From Allocoleopsis franciscana PCC 7113 (GTDB taxonomy: Bacteria; Cyanobacteriota; Cyanobacteriia; Cyanobacteriales; Coleofasciculaceae): 64,000 nucleotides of DNA. The stretch is taken from the NCBI RefSeq assembly GCF_000317515.1, contig NC_019738.1:4056001-4120000 (forward strand), written 5' to 3'. A model generated the notes under the pieces. It was not told where the DNA came from and did no database searches. It was given only the letters and a program-made list of their open reading frames with translations. Positions 6,617 through 14,440 of this stretch are shown here, in pieces. The first letter of the stretch is position 1; each line of letters opens with the position of its first letter. The position numbers and the translations under genes are program-made.

Positions 6617-7679
6617 GTAGAGTTTTCACCCTTCGCATGACACTGTTATTGGAATTAACGAGAGAATCCAAAAGAAGCGATTTTGGCAGCATTGACAGGA
6701 TGGTTATCGGTAGCAACCTCAACTAGTAAACGTTCATTTTTTTTCCATCTGATTGGCTAACACAATAGAAATGAATAAACTTTTCATCTTTATAACTCTT
6801 TCTACTTAAGGTTATGCATAAAAATTTTAACCGACGATAAAGCTCTATTTTGTATCCTAATAAAAGTTTGAAATAATTTTTTTAAAAAAGATTATTTTTT
6901 TGCTAATCTTCATACAACTAACAAAATTGCCTATAGAGTGTTTATCAAAACTTGGTAGACTCTTTTTGAGTTAAGGTGATATATAGCGGTTCCCTCTCAT
7001 GTGAGGTACAACACGATCCCCCTCGCATCTCCGGACTTCGTCCCGCTTCGCTAACACTAAAGCTCCGGCTTAAAAAGGGGGACTTGAAGCTCAAGAATGT
7101 ACCTCACGAGACTAGGAAACGCTATAGATTTGTAGGGTATTATTATTCACCTCCAAGCGGTAGCCCACAACAGGAAAGTAGGATTAAAGCTTGATTGTAA
7201 CCTTAGGCTGATGACAATGACAGCCGATTGAGTCGATGATTCAGGGGCATGATAGTACAGAAGACTTCTCTGCTGAGGCGGACAAGAGAGGATGAACTCA
7301 GGGAATTCGAGGCTTTGTGATCTAACTGTCATTGAGCGTGTTCGCCGCACCTTTTGACCGTCTGGGGATTCTGGCGAAGTTAGCTAAACTGAGAATAGAA
7401 AGAACATAAATATTTAATGTTTATGTCCTATTTGGATACCGTTAGGTTGAGATGCTGTGGTGTCTTGCTGCACTAAAACGGTGTAAGCCAGTGAGGTTGC
7501 CTATTTGAGGAGGGCAATTGTAACTGGAAAATCCCACCGTTCCTTTGACAAGAGTATGCAGCAGGGTACAAAGCCTTGCCAGAGTTCTTGCACAGGGCGG
7601 TAGGAGGGTGCCACAATTCCTAGTGATACCCTGATGGATAGCTTGTATTGATAGTTTGGAGTTTTGTAGAGGCAGATAT
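6617..7679. other. Long A/T-rich intergenic region with a MITE-like element
   Basis: About 1.06 kb without a supportable gene. The section 6740-6960 is strongly A/T-rich and could contain promoters for the divergent neighbours. A 145-bp element with inverted ends sits at 6982-7126 and is listed separately. Short frames at 6976-7194 and 7147-7350 lie on or beside that element and have no protein-like features. Confidence 0.6.
6982..7126. mobile_element. MITE-like element with 28-bp imperfect terminal inverted repeats
   Basis: The left end (6982-7009, beginning TATAGCGGTTCC and ending GTGAGGTAC) and the reverse complement of the right end (7099-7126) agree at 22 of 28 positions. The outer 7 and inner 9 bases are identical. 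The inside holds a second opposed pair, GATCCCCCT near 7015 and AGGGGGAC near 7075, typical of cyanobacterial intergenic repeats. There is no transposase, so it would be a non-autonomous miniature element. A target duplication is not clear. Confidence 0.6.
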
Positions 7680-8324
7680 ATGACATCCTATGCAACCTCT
7701 TCTGCCAGAGCCGAGATGAGTGAACTCCGGCGTTTAAAAACGTTGCTGCCACCAGAATTGCAGAGCTGGGTCATGGTAGAAGCAACCACTGAAGTCAATC
7801 CCCCCTTGCTTCGCACTGAAGAAATTGGCAGAGATGAGGTTGAAATTCAAATTGACCTAGTCAAATGGGAGCAGCTCGCTCTTGACCAGCGCAACTTGAT
7901 ATTTTGGCATGAAGTGGCTCGAATTCAGAATGATACCATCCCCAAAGAGGGATGGGAAATGGCGGCTCTAGCCATTGGTTTAGGCGGCGCTGTGGGCGAA
8001 CTGTGGGTACAGGATGGCTTGCTGCTGTTGTTAGCCTTGGCGCTGTGTGGAGTTTCCGGCTGGCGGCTGTATCAAAAAAACAATGGGGATAAAACCTTCA
8101 AGGAAGCGGTGGAGGCAGATGAAAAAGCGATCGCCCTTGCCACTCGCTTTGGTTATACTCTACCCAACGCCTACAAAAGTCTGGGCAGCGCGTTGAAAAC
8201 CCTGGTGGAAATCACACCGAGTCGGCGTCAACGGCGCAAATACGAAGCACGGCTTTCGGCGCTGAAAAAGAGTGCAGCTCAAGCTAAAGCCAGAGTGAAA
8301 TCCCAACGCGAGGAACAGTACTAA
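7680..8324 (+). CDS. DUF3318 domain-containing membrane protein
   Basis: A protein of 214 residues from the ATG at 7680 (MTSYATSSARAEMSELRRLK). The track frame opens 8 codons earlier, but this start gives the family-like N terminus. The order LKTLLPPELQSWV, DLVKWEQLALDQRNLIFWHEVARIQ, two adjacent hydrophobic stretches at about 100-135, and a Lys/Arg-rich helical C terminus is that of the cyanobacterial DUF3318 family. That family has no established function. It converges with queE: the two stop codons share the four bases 8321-8324. Confidence 0.8.
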   Translation: MTSYATSSARAEMSELRRLKTLLPPELQSWVMVEATTEVNPPLLRTEEIGRDEVEIQIDLVKWEQLALDQRNLIFWHEVARIQNDTIPKEGWEMAALAIGLGGAVGELWVQDGLLLLLALALCGVSGWRLYQKNNGDKTFKEAVEADEKAIALATRFGYTLPNAYKSLGSALKTLVEITPSRRQRRKYEARLSALKKSAAQAKARVKSQREEQY

Positions 8325-9437: not shown

Positions 9438-10439
9438 ATGGCTGACCCAGTTCCAGAAACAAGTTTTGAGGTAAATTTCACAAACGGTGCTGCTGTGATG
9501 CAGATTCCCGTTCGCTTGGCTGGGGTTGACGCTGTGGCCTTTAAAGACGCTTGTCACCAGCTTTTGGAAAAAAGCTCACTTCCCGAAAATCTCGTTTTTG
9601 ATTTTTCACAGACGACATTTATCGACAGCAGTGGGATTGGCGCAATCGTGAGCAATCATAAGATCGCTCGGATCAAGGATGTTAAGGTGGTACTCAGGGG
9701 CGTGCTTCCGCAGGTGAAGGCTGTGCTGGAAATGACCGCGCTCGACAAAGTTTTGACGATTGAGCCAGTGGAGGCATCCGAAAATTCCGTTGCCAATCGC
9801 TCAAAAACCGAGTTACCAACAACTCATCCTTCTGTACAATCTAAGGTCAAGCGCACATTAGACGTTGTGGGTTCGCTGGTGGGTTTAGGCATTACGGCTT
9901 TAGTGTTTATTCCGATCGCACTGGCGATTAAACTCAATGACCCAGGCCCCATCTTATTTAGTCAGACCCGCTTAGGCTGGATGGGAAAGCCGTTTAAGAT
10001 CTGGAAATTCCGTTCCATGTATGTTGATGCCGAAGCCAGAAAAAAAGAGCTTGAAAATCAAAATCAAGCCGATGGCAAGGTATTCAAGATGGAAAACGAC
10101 CCCAGAATCACAAAGGTGGGTCGCATTTTGCGGAAAACGAGTCTGGATGAACTCCCTCAGTTTTGGAATGTCCTAAAAGGTGAGATGAGTTTGGTTGGCA
10201 CCCGACCTCCGACACCGAATGAAGTTGACATTTATGAAGTACCCGAATGGCAACGATTAGATGTCAAACCCGGAATGACTGGCGAGTGGCAGGTCAATGG
10301 GCGATCTTCCATCCGCAATTTTGAAGACATCATTAGACTGGATTTACGCTACCAGCAAAACTGGAGCTTGGCGTATGACCTGAAGCTCATTCTCAAAACA
10401 ATCTTGGTTGTGTTTCGTAAAGACAGTGGCGCTGTTTAA
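9438..10439 (+). CDS. STAS domain fused to an undecaprenyl-phosphate sugar-1-phosphate transferase
   Basis: A 333-residue fusion. Residues 1-112 are a STAS (anti-sigma-factor antagonist) domain with the phosphorylatable serine S65 in FIDSSGIGAI. Residues 113-135 form a linker. Residues 136-333 are a bacterial sugar transferase of the WbaP/PssY catalytic type, with one membrane helix (about 142-165), DPGPILFSQTRLG, KIWKFRSM, and the catalytic pair D237-E238 in SLDELPQFWNVLKGEMSLVG. It would start exopolysaccharide repeat synthesis by loading a sugar phosphate onto undecaprenyl phosphate. The next gene encodes an RsbW-like kinase, the usual partner of a STAS protein, suggesting control of polysaccharide initiation by Ser phosphorylation. 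Confidence 0.9.
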   Translation: MADPVPETSFEVNFTNGAAVMQIPVRLAGVDAVAFKDACHQLLEKSSLPENLVFDFSQTTFIDSSGIGAIVSNHKIARIKDVKVVLRGVLPQVKAVLEMTALDKVLTIEPVEASENSVANRSKTELPTTHPSVQSKVKRTLDVVGSLVGLGITALVFIPIALAIKLNDPGPILFSQTRLGWMGKPFKIWKFRSMYVDAEARKKELENQNQADGKVFKMENDPRITKVGRILRKTSLDELPQFWNVLKGEMSLVGTRPPTPNEVDIYEVPEWQRLDVKPGMTGEWQVNGRSSIRNFEDIIRLDLRYQQNWSLAYDLKLILKTILVVFRKDSGAV

Positions 10440-10905
10440 AAAACCCTGGAACCTTGTTTGGTTGAGGCATAACGAAAAACCCCTCAAACAAGACCGTCTC
10501 CAAGTCGAGACGGACTTGCACGCTGTTACACAAGTTTTACAGTGGTTTGAGGATTTTACCAAACCGCTCCTGCCTCAACCCTTTCAATCGCAGTGCCAAC
10601 TCGCATTTGTAGAAGGCTTTACAAATGCAGTTCGCCATGCTCATCAAAAATTACCTCCAACGACACCAATCGAGCTGGAATTGAAGGTATTTACTGACAG
10701 CTTAGAGATGCGAATCTGGGATCATGGGCAGCCATTTGATTTGCAAACTAAACTTCAAGAAGCCCTCGACCACCATAAACAGGCTGATCCACTAGAGGAA
10801 ATAGGAGGCAGAGGGCTGATTTTTATGCACCAACTCATGGATGAGCTAGCTTACTTGCGCGTAGACGACGAGCGCAATTGTCTGCTGATGCGTAAACGGC
10901 ACTAG
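10408..10905 (+). CDS. RsbW/SpoIIAB-like anti-sigma factor serine kinase (HATPase_c_2)
   Basis: A protein of about 160-165 residues with a single GHKL ATPase domain: N-box EGFTNAVRHAH, G1-like DHGQPFDL, and G2-like GGRGLIFMHQLMDEL. These are features of partner-switching kinases that phosphorylate STAS proteins. There is no ATG start. A TTG at 10408 overlaps the end of the STAS-sugar transferase gene by 32 bases, and a GTG at 10426 is the better alternative. The overlap implies translational coupling, so the fused STAS domain is its probable substrate. Its stop overlaps that of the convergent gene by four bases (10902-10905). Confidence 0.87.
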   Translation: MCFVKTVALFKKPWNLVWLRHNEKPLKQDRLQVETDLHAVTQVLQWFEDFTKPLLPQPFQSQCQLAFVEGFTNAVRHAHQKLPPTTPIELELKVFTDSLEMRIWDHGQPFDLQTKLQEALDHHKQADPLEEIGGRGLIFMHQLMDELAYLRVDDERNCLLMRKRH

Positions 10906-11789
10906 ATTTCAGCAACCGCTCTCTCAATTAGTCGTCGAGCTAAGGTTTGGGTGCCTGTATGCTCGAAATAGTTGGTAGACACATCGAGAAAAGCTCCCAA
11001 ATAGTCCAATTTGCTATCAGCAACGTCAATAAACCCTTGCAGGTTATTGGCTACATTTTGTGGAGTCAAACTTTTTGATGCCACAAAATTACTCATCCAA
11101 CCTTTGACTGAATCAAAGCTTTGACCGATAAAGTTGAGCTTACCACCCGCATCGCCCCCAGGAATGGCGTCACTAACGCTACTGAAGGTCTGATTTCGCT
11201 CTAAATCTGAAGGACTAAGTCCTGAAAGAGTGGATTGCGCCTGCCTGATAAAATCGGGGCCGAGGGGAATCAGGCCATCAAAACACACGAGCGCAGCCAT
11301 CCGCATCAAATTTTCGCCACTGTATTCCCCTAAAGAGGCGACAAAGTCCCCAATACTATCACCGGGAATGCCGTTAATCTGACAGAAGGCGACTAACTCT
11401 ACAACCAGTTTCAAGCACAAATCGATGGTTTGGGCTTTGTCAGCTTTGGGTGTTAGGTTGCTTAAAAACCCCATGAGAGGGATTTTTTCTCCCACTTTAT
11501 TGGCTAGAGCCGCTGCACCCAAGGCATAATCCGTCTTGTCAACGGTTTGGTAAAGCCACATGGCACGTTGGTAGCCTTGGGAGCGATCATTGTACAGGTA
11601 GACCGCGCGATCGCCAATTTGCTGAATAATCTCTTCGTCCGTTTCACCCGTAACGGTGCGAATGGTATTCTCAAAACCAACCACATTTTGCCACTCACCT
11701 GGAATGACAAAATCGAGAGACCTCAACGCCATCGTGGTGATATTGCTGGTTGGTAGCTCATCAACAAGTTCAAAAATTGGTTTGCTCAT
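10902..11789 (-). CDS. Conserved hypothetical alpha-helical protein
   Basis: I do not recognise the family. From the ATG at 11789 (MSKPIFELVDELP), preceded by AGGAG at good spacing, it has 295 residues; a longer frame to 11888 has no ribosome binding site and a poor N terminus. The protein is rich in predicted helices, with no signal peptide or membrane segment, and contains segments such as GDRAVYLYNDRSQGYQRAMWLYQTVDKTDYALGAAALA (positions about 58-95). It converges with the RsbW-like gene; a functional link is not implied. Confidence 0.7.
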   Translation of the reverse strand: MSKPIFELVDELPTSNITTMALRSLDFVIPGEWQNVVGFENTIRTVTGETDEEIIQQIGDRAVYLYNDRSQGYQRAMWLYQTVDKTDYALGAAALANKVGEKIPLMGFLSNLTPKADKAQTIDLCLKLVVELVAFCQINGIPGDSIGDFVASLGEYSGENLMRMAALVCFDGLIPLGPDFIRQAQSTLSGLSPSDLERNQTFSSVSDAIPGGDAGGKLNFIGQSFDSVKGWMSNFVASKSLTPQNVANNLQGFIDVADSKLDYLGAFLDVSTNYFEHTGTQTLARRLIERAVAEI

Positions 11790-11878
11790 GGGCAGGCTCC
11801 TTGCCTTAGTTTTGAAGATTTGTACTAACCGATTAGCGAGGGTAAAGTTCTTTGACGCCCTACCCTTCTCTAATCCAT

Positions 11879-11890
11879 CTAGCGTCACGC
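11879..11890 (+). repeat. Dispersed repeat core CTAGCGTCACGC, copy 2
   Basis: Same exact 12-mer as at 1630-1641, followed by CGGACTACGCCCCGTTACTC. A variant of that tail, GGACTTCGTCCCGCTTCGC, occurs inside the MITE-like element near 7033-7051, which suggests related repeat material. Confidence 0.5.
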
Positions 11891-12579: not shown

Positions 12580-13210
12580 CGTCTTCTCCTTAATAAGTAG
12601 AGTTCTCGTTCCAATTTTGGCTTACAGATTGTCAATCTGGATCACTCCACAGTCACATCACCGATTGCCTCGCTCTAGTAAATCCTTCGTCATTTTGAGG
12701 AATCTTGCCCTAGAGAGCGGTTTTGATCGAGATCAACTATACTGATGCCGAACCGCACAACGATGAATCTCTCTCAACAAGTTGACAATACCGTCTATTT
12801 TAATTACGATCACCACTTTGGCCAGAGAATTAAGAATAGGCGATCGCCTAGAGAGCCTTGGCTCAGCGTCGCAGGAGTGCATCACGATCGGCCATTTGAG
12901 TCAAAAACGAGGGAATTCTGAACAGAAGAGCTTGCGAAAGATTCACACAGTGGCTCATCCCTTCTTGGCGTTTCTAGCTTCAAATCGCGGGGAGCCTCCA
13001 GCAAGTGGTTAATTTTTACAACACACGCCTCAAGGCAGCAACGTATTACCGTATAACCCCAAATATCAAAGATTCCAGGAGTTCCATAAGTTCACCTCGC
13101 CTTCTTGATTGGGCAAGGAATCTTTAAACATCTTTACTGAAGCTAGGGATAGCCTGGAGGGACAATCCCGATAACTCGGCAAGTATCTACCCAGATTGCA
13201 ACCTCAAGCC
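12580..13210. other. Intergenic region between lipoprotein and glycosyltransferase
   Basis: About 630 bases, divergent between the flanking genes. Short frames at 12500-12745 and 12782-13012 show no family resemblance. I see no RNA gene or repeat, only scattered HIP1-like octamers. Confidence 0.5.
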
Positions 13211-14440
13211 ATGCGCATTCTGATTTATACCTATAACTATTTTCCAGAGCCAATTGGGATTGCTCCCCTCGTCACAGAGCTAGCAGAAGGTTTAGTCAAG
13301 CGAGGGCACCAAGTTCGTGTCGTGACTGGAATGCCCAACTATCCTCAGCGCCGGATTTATGAAGGATATAGAGGTAAACTGTACCTCACCGAACTAACCA
13401 ATGGTGTTGCGGTTCAACGCAGTTACGTCTGGGTTCGTCCGAAACCTAGTTTACTGGATCGATTGTTACTCGAAGCTAGTTTCGTTGTGACCAGCTTCAT
13501 CCATGCTCTGAGAGGCAAGCGTCCAGATGTGATTTTCATCACCGCGCCCCCTCTACCAGTGTCCGTTCCATCGGCACTTTTGGGATGGCTACATCGTACA
13601 CCGATCGTCTTGAATCTTCAGGATATTTTGCCAGAGGCGGCGGTTAACGTTGGATTACTCAAGAATCCCAAGCTCATCCGGATTTTTGAACTTTTAGAAC
13701 AGTTTGCTTACCGTAGCGCCACCAAGATTAGTGTGATTGCGGAGGACTTCGTCGATCACTTAATCAGTAAAGGCGTTCCCGCCCGTAAAATTGTACAAAT
13801 ACCCAATTGGGTAGATGTTAATTTTATTCACCCTTTGCCCAAAGAAAAAAACGCCTTCCGCGCCGAACATCAACTAACGGATAAATTTGTCGTCCTCTAC
13901 TCCGGTAATATCGCTCTCACACAAGGATTAGAAACCGTCATCGAGGCGGCGAGTCGCCTGCATCATATTCCCAACTTAGCAATTGTGATTGTCGGGGAAG
14001 AGCAAGCCTTGCAGCGATTGCAGCAATTTTGCGATGGGTGTGGCGCTCACAATGTGACATTACTACCGCTTCAACCCCGCGAGAAACTTCCTGAAATGCT
14101 CGCCGCCGCCGATGTGGGATTAGTGGTGCAAAAGCATAACGTGATTTCTTTCAATATGCCGTCGAAAATTCAAGTGCTGCTGGCTAGTGGTTGTGCGGTG
14201 GTGGCGTCTGTTCCGGCAAATGGCACAGCCGCCAAAGCCATCGAACACAGTGGCGGGGGTCTTATTGTCCCTCCCGAAGATCCAGATGCACTAGCGGCAG
14301 CCATTTTGGAGCTGTATTACCAACCAGAAAAGATTAAAATGCTTGGGGAGAAGAGTCGGCAGTACGCTCTGGCTCACTACACATTGGAGCACGCACTTGA
14401 CCAGTATGAAGAACTTTTTGCTGCCGTTCATAAGCGTTAA
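13211..14440 (+). CDS. Glycosyltransferase family 4, WcaI-like
   Basis: A 409-residue GT-B glycosyltransferase from the ATG at 13211 (MRILIYTYNYFPEPIGIA). The N-terminal Rossmann domain has LVKRGHQVRVVTGMPNYPQ; the C-terminal GT4 domain has VVLYSGNIALTQGLETVIEAA, a VIVGEE turn, and the donor-binding segment MPSKIQVLLASGCAVVAS then GGGLIVPPEDPDALAAAI. This order matches colanic-acid-type WcaI transferases that extend lipid-linked exopolysaccharide repeats on the cytoplasmic face. The STAS-sugar transferase lies 2.8 kb upstream on the same strand and could supply the first sugar, but they are not in one operon. Confidence 0.88.
   Translation: MRILIYTYNYFPEPIGIAPLVTELAEGLVKRGHQVRVVTGMPNYPQRRIYEGYRGKLYLTELTNGVAVQRSYVWVRPKPSLLDRLLLEASFVVTSFIHALRGKRPDVIFITAPPLPVSVPSALLGWLHRTPIVLNLQDILPEAAVNVGLLKNPKLIRIFELLEQFAYRSATKISVIAEDFVDHLISKGVPARKIVQIPNWVDVNFIHPLPKEKNAFRAEHQLTDKFVVLYSGNIALTQGLETVIEAASRLHHIPNLAIVIVGEEQALQRLQQFCDGCGAHNVTLLPLQPREKLPEMLAAADVGLVVQKHNVISFNMPSKIQVLLASGCAVVASVPANGTAAKAIEHSGGGLIVPPEDPDALAAAILELYYQPEKIKMLGEKSRQYALAHYTLEHALDQYEELFAAVHKR

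Follow-up and report, generated by a model that had tools for sequence, protein, structure and literature searches.

The closest described systems pair an RsbW-type kinase with a STAS-domain protein. In Vibrio fischeri, the STAS protein SypA and the RsbW-type kinase/phosphatase SypE control the syp biofilm polysaccharide (PMC10120452, PMC4517449); SypA acts on the polysaccharide below transcription, and no sigma factor is known as its output. The HmpU/HmpV/HmpW set (phosphatase, STAS protein and RsbW-type kinase) of the cyanobacterium Nostoc punctiforme has been connected with both motility and polysaccharide (Riley 2018, through the accounts in PMC6495340 and PMC8256260). SypE/SypA and HmpUVW are both partner switches for which no sigma-factor output is known. 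In the Slr1861/Ssr1600/SigC system of Synechocystis, in contrast, a cyanobacterial RsbW-type kinase and its STAS substrate have a sigma factor as the output (PMC12329169). On the enzyme side, the phosphorylated signalling protein EpsW~P of Myxococcus xanthus, a single-domain response regulator, acts directly and in trans on EpsZ, the large monotopic phosphoglycosyl transferase (monoPGT) that initiates exopolysaccharide (EPS) synthesis, providing a precedent for direct signalling control of a phosphoglycosyl transferase (PGT) (PMC12802240). The same paper cites small monoPGTs fused to regulatory domains, including receiver domains, and also the tyrosine kinase CapB1 of Staphylococcus aureus, which phosphorylates the small monoPGT CapM and raises its activity in vitro; as cited there, CapB1 acts on the catalytic protein itself, and CapM appears without a STAS domain.

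Both components of the locus described here, a partner switch and a monotopic PGT, are of known kinds. It lies in a window, the whole stretch of DNA analysed, of 64,000 nt from Allocoleopsis franciscana PCC 7113 (GCF_000317515.1, NC_019738.1, positions 4,056,001-4,120,000, forward strand). As the sequence-only reading of this DNA had proposed, a STAS domain (PF01740) and a sugar-1-phosphate transferase (PF02397) are joined in one protein of 333 residues, followed by the gene for an RsbW-type kinase (Table 1). The STAS domain is thus fused to an initiating PGT, whereas SypA is a free STAS protein with no known target, and HmpV, in the accounts cited above, is a stand-alone STAS protein for which no effector is named. 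As in HmpUVW a STAS protein serves as the proposed output, and as in the Synechocystis system the kinase is of the RsbW type; kinase and phosphatase are separate proteins, unlike in SypE. Compared with EpsW/EpsZ, the signalling part is a fused STAS domain with a Ser kinase, and the PGT core lacks the large-monoPGT N-terminus. The literature searched contained no account of a STAS-PGT fusion, although the PGT survey of O'Toole 2021 (PMC7848588) might mention one.

Table 1. Features of the STAS-PGT locus, numbered from the first nucleotide of the window.
Feature	Position	Strand	Evidence
STAS-PGT fusion gene	9438..10439	+	333 aa plus stop; Pfam, solved-structure relatives, kept in 87/386 cyanobacterial genomes
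STAS domain, SpoIIAA/RsbV-like, residues 11-113	9468..9776	+	PF01740 E 1.7e-14; fold match 1tid_B/6m36_B, about 2 A rmsd
S64 codon, predicted phospho-acceptor (first Ser of DSSG)	9627..9629	+	alignment with SpoIIAA and SypA S56
Monotopic PGT domain, residues 138-326	9849..10415	+	PF02397 E 2.6e-68; PglC/WbaP relatives; Foldseek PglC 8g1n
Catalytic Asp-Glu dyad D237-E238	10146..10151	+	alignment with WbaP SLDELPQ; invariant in 98 distinct fusions
RsbW/SpoIIAB-type serine kinase, up to 165 aa	10408..10905	+	PF13581 (HATPase_c_2) E 4.6e-25; RsbW 6m36_A; AF2 fold
GT4-type glycosyltransferase, downstream neighbour, retained in many related loci	13196..14440	+	Pfam; cluster c4, 17 members
DUF3318 gene (PF11780), upstream syntenic marker of the locus	7656..8324	+	Pfam; cluster c1, 32 members

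In the STAS half, S64 aligns with Ser58 of SpoIIAA in the alignment to chain 1tid_B, which carries Ala at that position, presumably as the S58A mutant. The STAS motif is FIDSSGIGAIV, as compared with FLDSSGIGAIV in SypA, which is phosphorylated on S56, the first Ser of the motif, S57 being a different position (PMC10120452). By both alignments the predicted acceptor is S64, the first Ser of D63-S64-S65-G, and not S65, to which the sequence-only reading had assigned the phosphorylation; on these alignments, and with Cys in its place in 3 of the 98 distinct fusions, S65 is rejected as the phosphosite. Throughout the first 128 positions of the 98 aligned fusions, S64 is the sole invariant residue. 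The fusion thus has the STAS substrate of a partner switch, with a phosphorylatable Ser in D-S-S/T-G. Loss of S64 was sought in the fusions of G014, G076 and G093, three genomes in which no kinase could be recognised, and was not found; the Ser is kept, and only the G-x-G pattern after the Ser pair is lost. This erosion fits a relaxed constraint, short of proof. These fusions and the second copy of G080 (L173-L176) are of about 50% identity, with eroded motifs such as DSSGVVYL and DSSAIIYL.

The PGT half holds 61 invariant positions among the 98 distinct fusions, the D237-E238 dyad included. A Bac_transf fold with the Asp-Glu dyad, together with the PglC and WbaP matches, identifies it as a PglC-like monotopic PGT. 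The N-terminal four-TM bundle and cytoplasmic DUF of the large monoPGTs are missing, the N-terminus being the STAS domain, and the WcaJ, WbaP and EpsZ models match the fusion over its C-terminal part only, below the cut-off. Each half matches the fold of its own family (STAS, 1tid_B and 6m36_B; PGT, PglC 8g1n), and a long helix is predicted at residues 136-167 in the AF2 model of the fusion. As a whole this model is weak (pLDDT 67, pTM 0.46), and a STAS-PGT contact taken from it was dropped for that reason.

The downstream gene had been read as a kinase of the RsbW type with intact N, G1 and G2 boxes, and this holds: the top match among solved structures is B. subtilis RsbW (6m36_A, from the RsbV/RsbW complex 6m36), and the N box (E69..N73), G1 (D105/G107) and G2 (G133-G-R-G-L137) are all present. 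The AF2 model (pLDDT 85.8, pTM 0.79) has SpoIIAB and RsbW as its top fold matches. The predicted product is accordingly the RsbW/SpoIIAB-type GHKL serine kinase expected of a partner switch. The overlap of the two genes, also claimed before, depends on the start codon, which is uncertain: TTG at 10408 gives an overlap of 32 bp and GTG at 10426 one of 14 bp, while TTG at 10462 leaves none.

The fusion was detected in 87 of 386 sampled cyanobacterial genomes, representing 50 of 143 genera (E 1e-90 or better; one of the 87 matches, in G175, spans the PGT half only). Among the named relatives are Microcoleus, Moorena, Planktothrix, Microcystis, Okeania, Cyanobium and many Nostoc species. Because the same two-domain gene recurs so widely, a chance fusion is excluded. 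Linkage was checked for 90 fusions in 80 of these genomes, and the kinase gene was directly downstream on the same strand in 37 of them. The conservation of the pair in cyanobacteria, proposed earlier as a check, was thereby confirmed, and a pairing unique to this strain is ruled out. The distribution is uneven. Outside family f6, the kinase directly follows 32 of 45 fusions, across ten families, leaving 13 without an adjacent kinase. Within f6, which we read as the Nostoc-type family because its main copies resemble named Nostoc loci, none of the 40 main copies has an adjacent kinase, and all five kinase-linked cases are a second, more distant copy of the fusion. Every f6 main copy sequenced here retains S64, which calls for either a different kinase at these loci or an additional function of S64. 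A full-length fusion without a linked kinase is also present in the purple sulfur bacterium Rhabdochromatium marinum (L038:5956-6969), probably by horizontal transfer.

These 40 loci lend weight to a different explanation, in which the STAS half is merely structural or localising, replacing the DUF of the large monoPGTs, the kinase targets other STAS proteins, and the linkage reflects no more than a shared operon; other phosphorylatable STAS proteins are indeed present in this genome. The invariance of S64 alone in an otherwise variable STAS half argues against it, as does the eroded motif in the three kinase-less genomes and the behaviour of the kinase, which tracks the fusion. In the kinase tree, one branch (support 94/88) separates all linked kinases from 15 other RsbW-like kinases, most of which come from the same genomes; this separation from the non-linked kinases tested is a further difference from HmpUVW. 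Among the best 30 kinase matches in the 386 genomes (at least 176 bits), 27 adjoin a fusion. Of the other three, one lies away from the fusion in G070, one falls at the edge of a contig in G097, and one comes from G060, where no fusion was detected. In a mirror-tree analysis of 36 non-redundant pairs, the kinase co-varied with the STAS half (partial r 0.62 given PGT, permutation p 0.0005), and the corresponding value for PGT and kinase given STAS was 0.19, a difference that may come in part from the slower rate of the PGT half and the faster rate of the STAS half. Taken with this co-variation, a purely structural STAS half appears quite unlikely. One sequence used solely as a kinase in the alignments and the tree comes from a contig labelled Chloroflexaceae (L072:951-2405), which carries a frame-broken cyanobacterial-like fusion with a kinase and is probably cyanobacterial contamination.

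A genome-wide search for SpoIIE domains gave nine matches in this genome, none of them linked to the fusion, and no PP2C gene in the window. The matching phosphatase, which the earlier reading had wished to find, is thus missing from the window, but a PP2C gene is linked to the fusion cassette in nine relatives from about three lineages. In three Laspinema/Oscillatoria loci (L024, L028, L043), the fusion and kinase are accompanied by an 803-residue PP2C with PAS domains and a STAS-only gene; in G229 (L202), by a 722-residue PAS-PP2C and a STAS-only gene; in G091 (L193), by a REC-PP2C; and in G042, G024, G340 and G078 (L194-L197), by a STAS-only gene, a PP2C and a large neighbouring gene. Among the last four the Pfam scan covered L194, a Nostoc-type locus, in which the PP2C has a receiver domain and the large gene encodes a hybrid histidine kinase with HNOBA, PAS and GAF domains. 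Upstream in L194 are genes for a pyruvyl transferase, a flippase, a GT2 and an Alg14-like protein, with the cassette as the last part of this run of EPS genes; in G091 a GT28-like gene occupies the place corresponding to these polysaccharide genes. By its predicted domains, L194 encodes every step between sensor and enzyme, next to the EPS genes. The candidate sensor is the 1320-aa hybrid histidine kinase with its heme-NO-binding-associated (HNOBA) region (L194:9740-13699).

The STAS-only genes beside the cassettes of L024, L028, L043, L202 and L194-L197 raise the possibility of a module with two outputs, in which the STAS half has two effects, gating the PGT and sequestering the kinase so that another STAS or partner protein is freed. 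Such a gene is absent beside the window copy and from some of the cassettes, and we regard a second output as improbable.

No sigma factor was found in the window, the nearest in this genome being about 38 kb from the fusion, or among the Pfam-scanned genes of the linked cassettes. This bears on the classical reading, in which the kinase would be an anti-sigma factor and the fusion its antagonist, the PGT half anchoring the protein at the membrane or reporting sugar-lipid flux to a sigma factor. Sigma factors are the classical partners of RsbW-type kinases, the Synechocystis system Slr1861/Ssr1600/SigC being an example (PMC12329169), and this genome has 11 Sigma70_r2 matches. The invariance of the PGT catalytic residues and the placement of the Nostoc-type L194 cassette at the tail of a run of EPS genes speak for the enzyme instead, and together with the lack of a nearby sigma factor they make a transcriptional output unlikely.

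The conserved association of fusion and kinase, the single kinase clade, its co-variation with the STAS half, the linked PP2C genes and the lack of a sigma factor nearby are best explained by a partner-switching module with the PGT enzyme as its output. On this comparative evidence, the earlier proposal, an enzyme as output where a sigma factor would be usual, is the preferred reading and probably correct, with appreciable room for doubt; the 40 f6 main copies without an adjacent kinase are its weak point. For phosphorylation, gating, polarity and the polymer made, we infer the following course. The RsbW-like kinase would bind the STAS half and phosphorylate S64, and a SpoIIE-type PP2C, encoded elsewhere in this genome and next door in some relatives, would remove the phosphate on a signal from its own sensor domain or from the upstream hybrid histidine kinase. 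Whether the STAS domain is phosphorylated, and whether it is bound by the kinase, would then set the activity of the attached PGT. This enzyme is expected to load the carrier, polyprenyl phosphate, with sugar-1-phosphate, the first and committing reaction in making a polysaccharide for export. SypA is reported to be active when unphosphorylated (PMC4517449), and so is HmpV according to the account in PMC8256260. By analogy with these two, our guess is that phospho-S64 is probably the off state of the PGT and the unphosphorylated form the active one.

If so, a signalling system best known for the control of sigma factors would have a direct enzyme output, and control would fall on the step that commits the cell to polysaccharide export, at which supplies of carrier lipid and sugar nucleotides are limiting. 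Since in many cyanobacteria the enzyme is fused to a switch domain, often with an adjacent kinase and sometimes with a phosphatase and sensor, such cells probably switch slime production at the enzyme rather than through gene expression. In some cassettes sensor kinase, phosphatase, Ser kinase and enzyme are encoded side by side. The occurrence of the fusion in Microcystis, Planktothrix, Microcoleus and Nostoc bears on the formation of mats, blooms and sheaths. The fusion also offers a candidate target for SypA, with its biofilm control below transcription, and for HmpV: more speculatively, and with considerable reserve, STAS outputs of this kind might exert their effect by binding to the PGT that initiates their own polysaccharide pathway. 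Were this true, the fusion would serve as a "Rosetta stone" for partner switches that lack a sigma factor, and partner switching a general gate on polysaccharide synthesis at its first enzyme, below transcription.

Several other arrangements were observed. Two tandem RsbW-like kinases lie directly 3' of the fusion in L039 (6962-8152), and a 473-aa triple fusion of a GT28/Alg13-like domain with STAS and PGT is encoded in G109 (L198:8638-10056), with a kinase nearby on the opposite strand. Outside the window, a stressosome-like group of three HATPase_c_2 matches, one SpoIIE phosphatase and two STAS matches is located at G000:C1:4633057-4635703. Within the window, the gene at 10902-11888 on the minus strand encodes a protein without a Pfam match, relatives of which recur near the fusion in L027, L029, L035 and L042.
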